A stretch of DNA of 64,000 nt from NCBI RefSeq assembly GCF_034424625.1, contig NZ_CP139976.1:1116001-1180000 (forward strand). Reading direction: 5' to 3'. This DNA comes from Janthinobacterium lividum. GTDB lineage: Bacteria > Pseudomonadota > Gammaproteobacteria > Burkholderiales > Burkholderiaceae_D. This document shows, in pieces, positions 1-41,591 of the stretch (positions are counted from its first letter, which is position 1; each line of letters opens with the position of its first letter). A program made the position numbers and the translations under genes. The notes under the pieces are model-generated. The model did not search any database. It had not been told where the DNA came from and was given only the letters and a program-made list of their open reading frames with translations.

Positions 1-31
1 AGTATAGATACCAAGGCAAGACCAGCAGTGC

Positions 32-39857: not shown

Positions 39858-39974
39858 ACTGATTGCGGCGCCAATATTGTATAGACGTTTGGCGCCTCCC
39901 AATCTCTCCAAATTCCACATTTCATGGGCTGTCCCGATATATTTTCCAAACTGGAAATTTATCGAAAGGAAACG

Positions 39975-40003
39975 TTGACTCTAAAATAAGTGCGGTCTAT
40001 ATT
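39975..40003 (+). promoter_or_regulatory. Near-consensus sigma-70 promoter of the peptide cluster
   Basis: TTGACT (39975-39980), a 17-bp spacer and TATATT (39998-40003). The start would be near 40010, about 80 nt before the first peptide ATG. This is the best -35/-10 pair noticed in the window, suggesting strong or constitutive expression of the cluster. Confidence 0.75.
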
Positions 40004-40088: not shown

Positions 40089-40274
40089 ATGAAAAAGATT
40101 GCCGCATTTATTTTTACCGTGGGATTGAGTGCTTCCTATGCCATTGCTTCGGATATCGGCTGCTCCAGCTGCGAAGAGGAATTGCGGGAATGCACGATGA
40201 TGAACGGCGACAGATCCCCCTTTTGCATAGGCAGTTACAAAGCCTGCCTGAAAGTCTGCCAAATCGGCGCCTGA
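40089..40274 (+). CDS. Small secreted six-cysteine peptide 1
   Basis: A 61-aa precursor with a Sec signal peptide (MKKIAAFIFTVGLSASYAIA, cleavage near residue 20) and a mature peptide of about 41 aa. The cysteines are at 25, 28, 35, 46, 53 and 57 (C-x2-C-x6-C-x10-C-x6-C-x3-C). On helices these lie on one face, so a helix-turn-helix with nested disulfides 25-57, 28-53 and 35-46 is a natural model (inference). GGAG lies 8 nt before the ATG. First gene after the promoter and one of four related genes; no known family recognised. Loss of one residue in the first spacing distinguishes it from the other three. Confidence 0.8.
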   Translation: MKKIAAFIFTVGLSASYAIASDIGCSSCEEELRECTMMNGDRSPFCIGSYKACLKVCQIGA

Positions 40275-40355
40275 TATCCATGTTGCATTGCGAGGCGGCC
40301 GGCAAGCGCACGCTGCGCCGGCCGCCCTCGATCATTGACGCCTCTGACAATACTT

Positions 40356-40736
40356 ATGATGCAGAAAAAAATTAAAACCATCGCCATGTATGGCTTGATC
40401 CTGGCCGCCGGCCTGGGCAGCGGGTATGGCCTGTCCTTGTTGCCCGGTTTGCTCAAGCCGAATTACACCGAGGGTAATTACGCCGCATATTTCCCGAATG
40501 CCCAGGCGAAGGTGGTGTTGTACGGTACGGATTGGTGCGGCTATTGCGCCAAGACGCGCGCGTATTTCAAGGAAAACAAGATCGAATTCGTCGATCTCGA
40601 TATCGAGAAATCACCGGAAGCGAGAAAAGCCCATGAAGAACTCGGCGGCGGCGGCGTACCCGTGGTCTTGATCGGCAACCGCAAGATCCAGGGTTTCAAT
40701 ACTGGCGCGCTGGAAGCGGCGCTGAAGAAAATCTGA
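40356..40736 (+). CDS. Membrane-anchored glutaredoxin-like protein
   Basis: A 126-aa protein. A basic N-terminus (MMQKKIKTIAM) is followed by one TM helix (about 11-33), so by the positive-inside rule the thioredoxin-fold domain (about 50-126) faces the periplasm. The active site is W-CGYC (Cys61 and Cys64), with the cis-Pro loop GVPVVLIGNRKIQGFN and a typical EKSPEARKAHEEL helix. It lies between peptide genes 1 and 2 on the same strand. This suggests it reduces, isomerises or oxidises the peptides' disulfides; the direction is not predictable. It starts at the first of two adjacent ATGs. Confidence 0.85.
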   Translation: MMQKKIKTIAMYGLILAAGLGSGYGLSLLPGLLKPNYTEGNYAAYFPNAQAKVVLYGTDWCGYCAKTRAYFKENKIEFVDLDIEKSPEARKAHEELGGGGVPVVLIGNRKIQGFNTGALEAALKKI

Positions 40737-40767
40737 CGTTTCAACTTGTCAACCTGAAAGGCTCACC

Positions 40768-40959
40768 ATGTTCAAAAAGATTGCCGCTTTCCTGTTTGCC
40801 GCCGGCGCTGCGCTGTCCTTCAATGTCCATGCCGGCGGCCCTGACTGTACCTTTGTCTGCGAACGCAACCTGCTCGATTGCGTGGAATTCGGCCAGCCGG
40901 CCTGCATGGAAAATTATCAGGCTTGTCAGAAGGAATGCCTGCGCCCGCCGCATAACTGA
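40768..40959 (+). CDS. Small secreted six-cysteine peptide 2
   Basis: A 63-aa precursor with signal peptide MFKKIAAFLFAAGAALSFNV and likely cleavage after VHA (22). Cysteines at 27, 31, 38, 46, 53 and 57 give C-x3-C-x6-C-x7-C-x6-C-x3-C, the same mirror-symmetric pattern as its three neighbours with the shortest central loop. The mature part is about 41 aa and acidic in its first half (ERNLLD, VEFGQPA). AAAGG precedes the ATG. It follows the glutaredoxin gene by 31 nt. Confidence 0.8.
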   Translation: MFKKIAAFLFAAGAALSFNVHAGGPDCTFVCERNLLDCVEFGQPACMENYQACQKECLRPPHN

Positions 40960-41045
40960 CGCGCGGAGGCACTTATGGATGACGCGTAAGGGACGGCGCG
41001 CCATGGATGTTGCTCATCGTCTGACATTTCCACAAAGGAGTACCA

Positions 41046-41246
41046 ATGTTTAAAAAACTGGGTTTCTTTTTGTTTGCCATGGGCGTGAGCGCCTCGTATG
41101 CCATCGCTGGCGGCGGCGAGCCGGAATGCTACGCGCAGTGCGAGGACGATCTGGCGCAGTGCATGACGGATCATCCGAGGGCGCCAGGCGCTTGCTTCAA
41201 GATTCACCAGATGTGCAATAAGAGCTGCGATCCATACTTGCCGTAA
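41046..41246 (+). CDS. Small secreted six-cysteine peptide 3
   Basis: A 66-aa precursor. The signal peptide MFKKLGFFLFAMGVSASYAI is nearly identical to that of peptide 4. Cysteines at 28, 32, 39, 50, 57 and 61 give C-x3-C-x6-C-x10-C-x6-C-x3-C. The mature sequence otherwise differs from peptide 4 almost everywhere outside the cysteines. AAAGGAG lies 6 nt before the ATG. It is encoded 86 nt after peptide 2 and 96 nt before peptide 4. No homologous family recognised. Confidence 0.8.
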   Translation: MFKKLGFFLFAMGVSASYAIAGGGEPECYAQCEDDLAQCMTDHPRAPGACFKIHQMCNKSCDPYLP

Positions 41247-41342
41247 ATAATGATTGCCGGTCTGCGTCTGCCAGTCTCCTGGCCAGGCCGACCGAATCAA
41301 CTCATCCGTCCTGCAGTCTCTCATTTCCAAAAAGGAGTGTGT

Positions 41343-41531
41343 ATGTTCAAAAAGCTGGGTTTCTTTTTGTTTGCCATGGGCGTCAGCGCCTCGTATGCGA
41401 TGGCCAGTAGTACCGCCGACATTTCCGAATGCCAGTCCGAGTGCTATATGGCGCTCGATGCCTGTGTCATGGAGTTCAGTGTTCCTTCATGCGTCCGCGC
41501 CAATAAAGTGTGTCTTCAGGCCTGCGGCTGA
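41343..41531 (+). CDS. Small secreted six-cysteine peptide 4
   Basis: A 62-aa precursor. The signal peptide (MFKKLGFFLFAMGVSASYAM) differs from peptide 3 by one residue (I20M); all but one of the base differences there are silent. Cysteines at 30, 34, 41, 50, 57 and 61 give C-x3-C-x6-C-x8-C-x6-C-x3-C; the last cysteine is the penultimate residue. AAAAAGGAG precedes the ATG. The DNA upstream (CATTTCCA, then the ribosome-binding site) is also shared with peptide 3, so the two arose by a local duplication. A terminator follows 25 nt downstream. Confidence 0.8.
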   Translation: MFKKLGFFLFAMGVSASYAMASSTADISECQSECYMALDACVMEFSVPSCVRANKVCLQACG

Positions 41532-41556: not shown

Positions 41557-41591
41557 ACGGCGATGCGGTTTGACAGGCATCGCCGTTTTTT
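41557..41591. terminator. Terminator at the end of the peptide cluster
   Basis: ACGGCGATGC pairs with GCATCGCCGT (41557-41566 and 41577-41586), followed by six T. It ends the peptide cluster and faces the convergent cobalamin adenosyltransferase gene. Confidence 0.9.

Follow-up and report, generated by a model that had tools for sequence, protein, structure and literature searches.

Exported six-cysteine peptides encoded together with a membrane-anchored glutaredoxin in Janthinobacterium lividum

Gene layout, flanking elements and selection at the locus

The window, a stretch of 64,000 nucleotides from the Janthinobacterium lividum contig NZ_CP139976.1, carries on its plus strand four short genes for exported six-cysteine peptides, G1 (40089..40274, 61 aa), G2 (40768..40959, 63 aa), G3 (41046..41246, 66 aa) and G4 (41343..41531, 62 aa, within a longer frame starting at 41250), as well as a gene for a membrane-anchored, probably periplasm-facing glutaredoxin with a CGYC motif (Grx, 40356..40736, plus strand, recognised by its PF00462 match). 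All four peptides have a Sec-type signal, with a Lys-rich start, a hydrophobic core and a likely signal-peptidase site identified by eye, and cutting at this site left mature parts of 41, 41, 45 and 41 aa in G1 to G4, in agreement with an earlier note on this DNA, which had described four short genes with signal peptides and mature parts of about 41 to 45 aa. The cysteine spacings were also as claimed there: 2-6-10-6-3, 3-6-7-6-3, 3-6-10-6-3 and 3-6-8-6-3 in G1, G2, G3 and G4, respectively. Its four-peptide unit was correct in the number of peptide genes, but it omitted both the glutaredoxin inside the interval and a fifth, unlinked family member. Since the glutaredoxin gene lies between G1 and G2, the unit is G1-Grx-G2-G3-G4, probably a single operon. 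One protein from a 605-base contig (P0018) consisted of the G3 signal peptide fused to the glutaredoxin C-terminus at a Gly run, which represents either a recombination product or an assembly artefact.

The operon is probably driven by a sigma-70-type promoter, TTGACT-17-TATATT (39975..40003, plus strand), the best of three promoter-like sites in the scan with 10 of 12 consensus matches. The scan was weak on its own, because shuffled sequences averaged 1.3 sites; each of the 10 upstream regions aligned had an unchanged TTGACT, and nine also had TATATT. Two further elements were located upstream. The first, TTGTATAGACGTT (39877..39889, plus strand), is a possible regulatory site revealed by alignment of the upstream regions, with its first ten bases invariant in 10 of 10 Janthinobacterium sequences, one of which (L015) deviated at two of the last three positions; with up to two mismatches allowed, it matched once within the window against 0.17 expected. 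The second is a perfect palindrome just 5' of the promoter, TTTCCAAACTGGAAA (39943..39957), a candidate operator. It was the sole perfect match in the window, with three matches at up to one mismatch against 0.05 expected, while its arms were intact in six of the 10 aligned upstream regions and damaged or lost in four; in a search for upstream motifs shared across loci it occurred, among the loci listed, only in the window and two own-genus loci. Between G1 and the glutaredoxin gene, a GC-rich RNA hairpin without a T-run was predicted at 40291..40331 on the plus strand (MFE -32.1 kcal/mol and z -3.62 for 40284-40336), and it possibly sets the expression of G1 apart from that of the other genes. 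A rho-independent terminator with a 10-pair stem, a 10-nt loop and six U follows G4 (41557..41591, plus strand; -19.3 kcal/mol MFE and z -4.41 for the stretch folded); it was absent from the output of the consensus scan, in which the loop limit was 8 nt.

The pooled dN/dS of the mature region, calculated for Janthinobacterium orthologs from own-genus loci grouped by simple motifs (one G2 ortholog, L033, was classed as 'other' and omitted), was 0.185 in G1 (n = 16), 0.167 in G2 (n = 11), 0.364 in G3 (n = 18) and 0.155 in G4 (n = 12 distinct sequences), the pairs being non-independent. Values above 1 were obtained for six of 145 pairs in G3, the fastest-evolving of the four peptide genes, and for 0 of 109, 52 and 60 pairs in the other three, so that positive selection was not found by dN/dS in the G1–G4 orthologs. 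These values identify G1–G4 as conserved proteins under purifying selection, with no arms race, and the frames as genuine coding genes, as the earlier note had assumed. Synonymous divergence in the signal region was lower than in the mature region both in G1 (0.245 and 0.419) and in G3 (0.248 and 0.425), with no such drop in G2 and G4, hinting at gene conversion or RNA-level constraint within 40089-41105.

Linkage with the glutaredoxin and distribution of the family

The glutaredoxin matched PF00462 with an E-value of 1.6e-14 and 54.3 bits, above the gathering cut-off of 22.9 (the searches used 40353-40733, which is one codon ahead of the ATG). Its hydrophobic N-terminal segment follows KKIK and, by the positive-inside rule, the CxxC domain would face the periplasm. 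The CxxC was kept in all 80 distinct homologs scoring above 90 bits, which makes a dithiol reaction available to the enzyme.

Among 392 genomes of the bacterial family, 61 had both the peptide and the anchored Grx, 10 the peptide only, seven Grx only and 314 neither; at a peptide cut-off of E 1e-4 the respective numbers were 59, 2, 9 and 322 (Fisher p-values for this co-occurrence ignore shared ancestry). The anchored set was defined by an alignment start within the first 16 residues, excluding G263 and domain-only matches. The 40 own-genus genomes were fully concordant: 26 with both, 14 with neither (three of them less than 90% complete) and none discordant. Three of the seven Grx-only genomes (G241, G259, G313) had a four-cysteine or shifted six-cysteine peptide beside Grx, two (G228, G372) had no such peptide beside it, and two (G165, G209) were outside the fetched loci. 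Eight of the 10 peptide-only genomes had weak scores, and in the other two (G203, G240) the module was fused inside longer proteins. Four of the 10 were re-examined (G195, G203, G240 and G252), and the frames of G195 and G252 were rejected as not resembling members.

Gene neighbourhoods were compared in 54 fetched loci, comprising 47 stretches from outside the genus and seven of the 26 own-genus genomes; the second G313 match, further G308 and G358 matches, and partial or domain-only matches were outside this set. A family peptide was located within 1 kb of Grx in 47 loci and within 300 nt in 45, the distances being slightly underestimated by the use of stop-to-stop Grx frames. The strict six-cysteine scan accounted for 33 of the 47 adjacent peptides, while the other 14 were four-cysteine or shifted-spacing relatives recovered with a profile built from the six-cysteine peptides of the same loci and are, in contrast to the 33, partly circular. 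In the remaining seven loci (L089, L093, L100, L122, L126, L127, L128) no family peptide was found within 1 kb of Grx, even by a looser look. The peptide was transcribed divergently from Grx in four loci (L096, L103, L107, L116). Grouping by common neighbour genes divided the 54 loci into eight neighbourhoods of at least two loci and 11 single ones, some of which may be split by contig ends, and among the 25 commonest clusters of frames of at least 90 aa only Grx was a repeated close neighbour in most of the loci. None of six control loci around other Grx-domain proteins contained a six-cysteine peptide. In the only clear match from another family of the order (G488) the peptide and Grx formed a pair about 130 nt apart. 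Two Grx-peptide units were found about 4 kb apart in L105, and L109 contained three Grx genes and 13 six-cysteine peptides, layouts in which enzyme and peptide seem to duplicate together. Adjacency is not required for every member: the fifth peptide of the host genome (C1:720714) is unlinked to the genome's only Grx of this type, and the distant six-cysteine relatives L154-L159 had no such Grx within about 7 kb on each side. No match to Grx at E 1e-15 was obtained in 72,556 plasmid records.

Weaker four-cysteine relatives are also present in the host genome, including two exported ones with a C-x6-C-x7/8-C-x6-C pattern (G000:C1:692835, L058; G000:C1:1440160, L059) away from the genome's Grx. 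Peptide matches were obtained at E up to 0.01 in at least 71 of the 392 family genomes and, at E 0.001, in at least three of 349 order genomes and at least five of 349 phylum genomes, with the own genome counted each time; because scoring was restricted to the best 16 (family) or 18 (order, phylum) candidates of each genome, both copy numbers and absences are to be read as lower bounds. An order-level match in G438, weak, with internal stops and no cysteine frame, was rejected. The largest numbers of six-cysteine ORFs within 20 kb were found in Massilia/Pseudoduganella-type loci: 24 in L123, where they are paralogs beside two Grx genes, 22 in L094, 17 in L112 and 16 in L113. Some Massilia-type arrays also include an M48 peptidase gene (L112, 8411-9160; L123, 6660-7409, with PF01435 in the L123 copy) and a gene that we take to be LysR-like. 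At two loci the six-cysteine module was found at the C-terminus of longer frames (L142, 217-1671; L141, 1501-1974), one of which has an HExxH motif with no Pfam match, and in the other the module follows another Cys-rich segment.

A seven-row profile of distant members, of which only the one from L153 has Grx nearby, returned 186 proteins at E up to 1. Among the 120 matches listed, 107 had the six-cysteine spacing, six the inner four cysteines only and seven neither; none had a Pfam domain, and most were named 'hypothetical protein', while a few bore automatically assigned names, e.g., lipoprotein or Kazal-like. The spacing pattern, for which the earlier note had proposed a profile search, is thus present in unnamed exported proteins of, e.g., Stenotrophomonas and Bradyrhizobium, although it is not proven that these share an ancestor with the window family. 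Each of G1–G4 had zero Pfam families at E up to 10 (with HMMER filters on), the four peptides had no PADLOC match and none in NCBIfam above the cut-off, and in a search of open-licence articles on the peptide family and periplasmic glutaredoxin no description of the family was found. It is thus apparently undescribed, as suspected from the outset. The TOMM_BorA model of NCBIfam, returned for G3, was rejected: it scored 13.3 bits against a cut-off of 60 and covered residues 1-24, i.e., the signal peptide.

Cysteine frame and predicted fold

The six cysteines of each peptide follow the pattern 2/3-6-7..10-6-3. Both x6 spacings were fixed by construction in the strict scan for six-cysteine ORFs with a signal-like start, which found none in 931,742 bases of reversed sequence; in a looser scan allowing 5-7 residues at these positions, x6 was present in every signal-bearing match among those listed. 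AlphaFold2, supplied with 59 sequences, was applied to G1 and G3. The mature G1 was predicted with a pLDDT of 87.6 as helices 6-19 and 24-40 of 41 residues, and G3 with a pLDDT of 89.8 as helices 3-19 and 24-38 of 43 residues modelled, so that both models consist of two helices and a four-residue turn despite 23% sequence identity. The helical hairpin predicted by the earlier note was therefore reproduced as far as the helices and the turn are concerned, while the helices are presumably packed antiparallel. The G3 model aligned with PDB helical hairpins over all 43 residues with generic scores only, and the PDB profile search, Foldseek and VIA-align returned only noise-level rows, ATP synthase c-rings among them.

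The cysteines sit on one face of each helix, for which positions i, i+4 and i+11 had been proposed; this holds except for the first half of G1, where they occupy i, i+3 and i+10. The two halves had furthermore been described as mirror images. The cysteine spacing is indeed mirrored, but 83% of the 141 distinct sequences had an aromatic or large hydrophobic residue at C2+4, and 73% had one at C4+4; these are the commonest positions of Tyr/Leu and point in the same direction in both helices, which limits the mirror symmetry to the cysteines.

Nested disulfides C1-C6, C2-C5 and C3-C4 had been predicted as well, and this connectivity, still a prediction, is favoured by the way in which relatives lose their cysteines. 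The outer pair was missing (C-x6-C...C-x6-C) in L090, L097, L121, L059 and L006, and the inner pair (CX3C...CX3C) in L091, L095, L099, L104, L106, L111 and L115, and such loss in matched pairs is what nested pairing predicts, although by our estimate it rests on few, perhaps three, independent events. Six cysteines were counted in 196 of 217 distinct profile matches and four in 15, of which L061 is spurious; one match had ten, a frame in L109 had none, and in four the number was odd. Three of these four had a cysteine in or before the signal peptide, and the fourth (L060) was an unrelated frame.

Several known hairpins are similar in parts. Mitochondrial intermembrane-space proteins of the CHCH/twin-CX9C type form a disulfide-held helical hairpin that is served by a disulfide enzyme. 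The CHCH domain of Mic19 was the top Foldseek row, with an E-value of only 2.7, but all four window peptides have an inner CX6C rather than CX9C spacing and no Pfam match, are Sec-exported, and have a glutaredoxin rather than Mia40 as a partner. For the animal hairpin toxins acrorhagin I (6ux5) and neurotoxin B-IV (1vib) all scores were noise and no homology is claimed. The alpha-hairpinins of plant defence are helix-loop-helix peptides stapled by CX3C...CX3C, with four cysteines in a C-X3-C-Xn-C-X3-C arrangement (PMC7191063). C1, C2, C5 and C6 of G2–G4 fit this motif, the seven relatives lacking the inner pair, which lie beside Grx, are CX3C...CX3C, and the helix-turn-helix of G1 and G3 is predicted by AlphaFold2; however, the window peptides have six cysteines instead of four, G1 starts with CX2C, and the bacterial Sec signal, the Grx neighbour and the mostly acidic composition are further differences, with no sequence relation shown.

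Proposed mechanism and possible role

The co-encoded membrane-anchored glutaredoxin is the strongest clue to the mechanism. We regard G1-Grx-G2-G3-G4 as an export-and-fold module with a dedicated periplasmic thiol-disulfide enzyme, a reading to which we assign a probability of roughly 0.6. Each peptide would be exported by the Sec system, lose its signal peptide and, once in the periplasm, fold into a hairpin of two antiparallel helices, in which the facing cysteines would form the three nested disulfides. Grx, presumably anchored in the inner membrane so that its CxxC domain lies on the periplasmic side, would form, correct or cycle these disulfides, the peptides being its putative substrates. 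Glutaredoxins normally need glutathione, and the reading would presuppose its supply in the periplasm, a point that counts against it. Gene linkage supports the mechanism well, and the steps beyond linkage are what we infer.

The nearest functional parallel found for Grx may be PedC, a thioredoxin-fold, putative secreted CXXC protein, whose co-production raised the potency of pediocin (PMC4919988). Class IIa bacteriocin operons likewise encode a small exported Cys peptide together with a thioredoxin-fold CXXC protein (PMC4919988). The window family differs in that, among frames of at least 90 aa, no ABC exporter or immunity gene was seen to recur, and in its Sec-type signal. Class IIa bacteriocins also differ from the window peptides in fold and host phylum.

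What the folded peptides do is the weakest step. Partners outside the cell are suggested by conserved signals combined with divergent mature parts, by the large arrays and by the patchy distribution, and action of secreted or envelope peptides on such partners, which we rate at slightly below an even chance, is favoured over a buffering or metal-binding role. The list of roles in the earlier note (toxin, competition, stress, metal) can be narrowed in one respect: cationic peptides that lyse membranes are disfavoured, because the net charge of the 139 distinct mature sequences was negative in 110, zero in 16 and positive in 13.

One candidate role, in our view less likely than not, is that of peptides secreted for competition, either bacteriocin-like or directed against eukaryotes, and matured by Grx in the manner proposed for PedC-type enzymes and pediocin. 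The mean identity between paralogs at seven loci was 0.38-0.56 in the signal against 0.12-0.18 in the mature part, 16-24 copies occurred in each of four loci, presence was patchy even within the genus (26 of 40 genomes), and a small Cys peptide next to a thioredoxin-fold enzyme parallels pediocin (PMC4919988). This reading is weakened by dN/dS values that lie far below 1 for each of G1–G4, by the mostly acidic mature peptides, by the lack of a recurring immunity gene or exporter beside them among the 25 commonest clusters (frames of at least 90 aa) of the 54 loci, and by the negative PADLOC and NCBIfam results. Ranked lower is a periplasmic thiol/redox buffer, in which the peptides would cycle between dithiol and disulfide and exchange electrons with the anchored Grx under oxidative stress. 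The tight pairing with a dithiol Grx, even cysteine counts in nearly all members and the acidic mature parts are consistent with it, but the 24 divergent paralogs beside two Grx genes in L123 exceed the variety that a buffer needs and no redox regulator site was identified. We consider this role doubtful. Improbable, and ranked lower still, are metal-binding hairpins whose facing cysteines hold Cu(I), Zn or similar instead of forming disulfides: cysteines on one face of two helices are compatible with a thiolate cluster, but paired cysteine loss and the Grx partner suit disulfides better, His (1.6%) and Met (1.9%) are rare among the mature residues, and the recurring neighbours listed included no recognisable metal transporter. 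That the genes are fortuitous or non-coding ORFs whose cysteine pattern is a coincidence, as their shortness and the lack of Pfam models might suggest, is refuted by the dN/dS of 0.155-0.364, as well as by the empty scan of reversed sequence and the conserved gene order and promoter, and its probability is negligible.

With the export-and-fold module as the preferred reading, the locus adds to Gram-negative bacteria a family of exported mini-proteins, apparently undescribed and probably stapled by disulfides, which is Grx-coupled and locally expanded rather than a set of four isolated peptides, and the linked oxidoreductase provides a direct handle on peptide function. More speculatively, and in our opinion unlikely rather than likely, the system might be a bacterial counterpart to the disulfide relay of mitochondria, in which an anchored periplasmic Grx would fold a hairpin repertoire of up to 24 per locus with a fixed cysteine frame, serving as an evolvable pool of secreted binders. 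If the enzyme-substrate pair is true, it would represent a folding system dedicated to a repertoire of peptides alongside the general Dsb system, and the peptides would offer a small natural scaffold whose frame is fixed and whose surface can vary freely.
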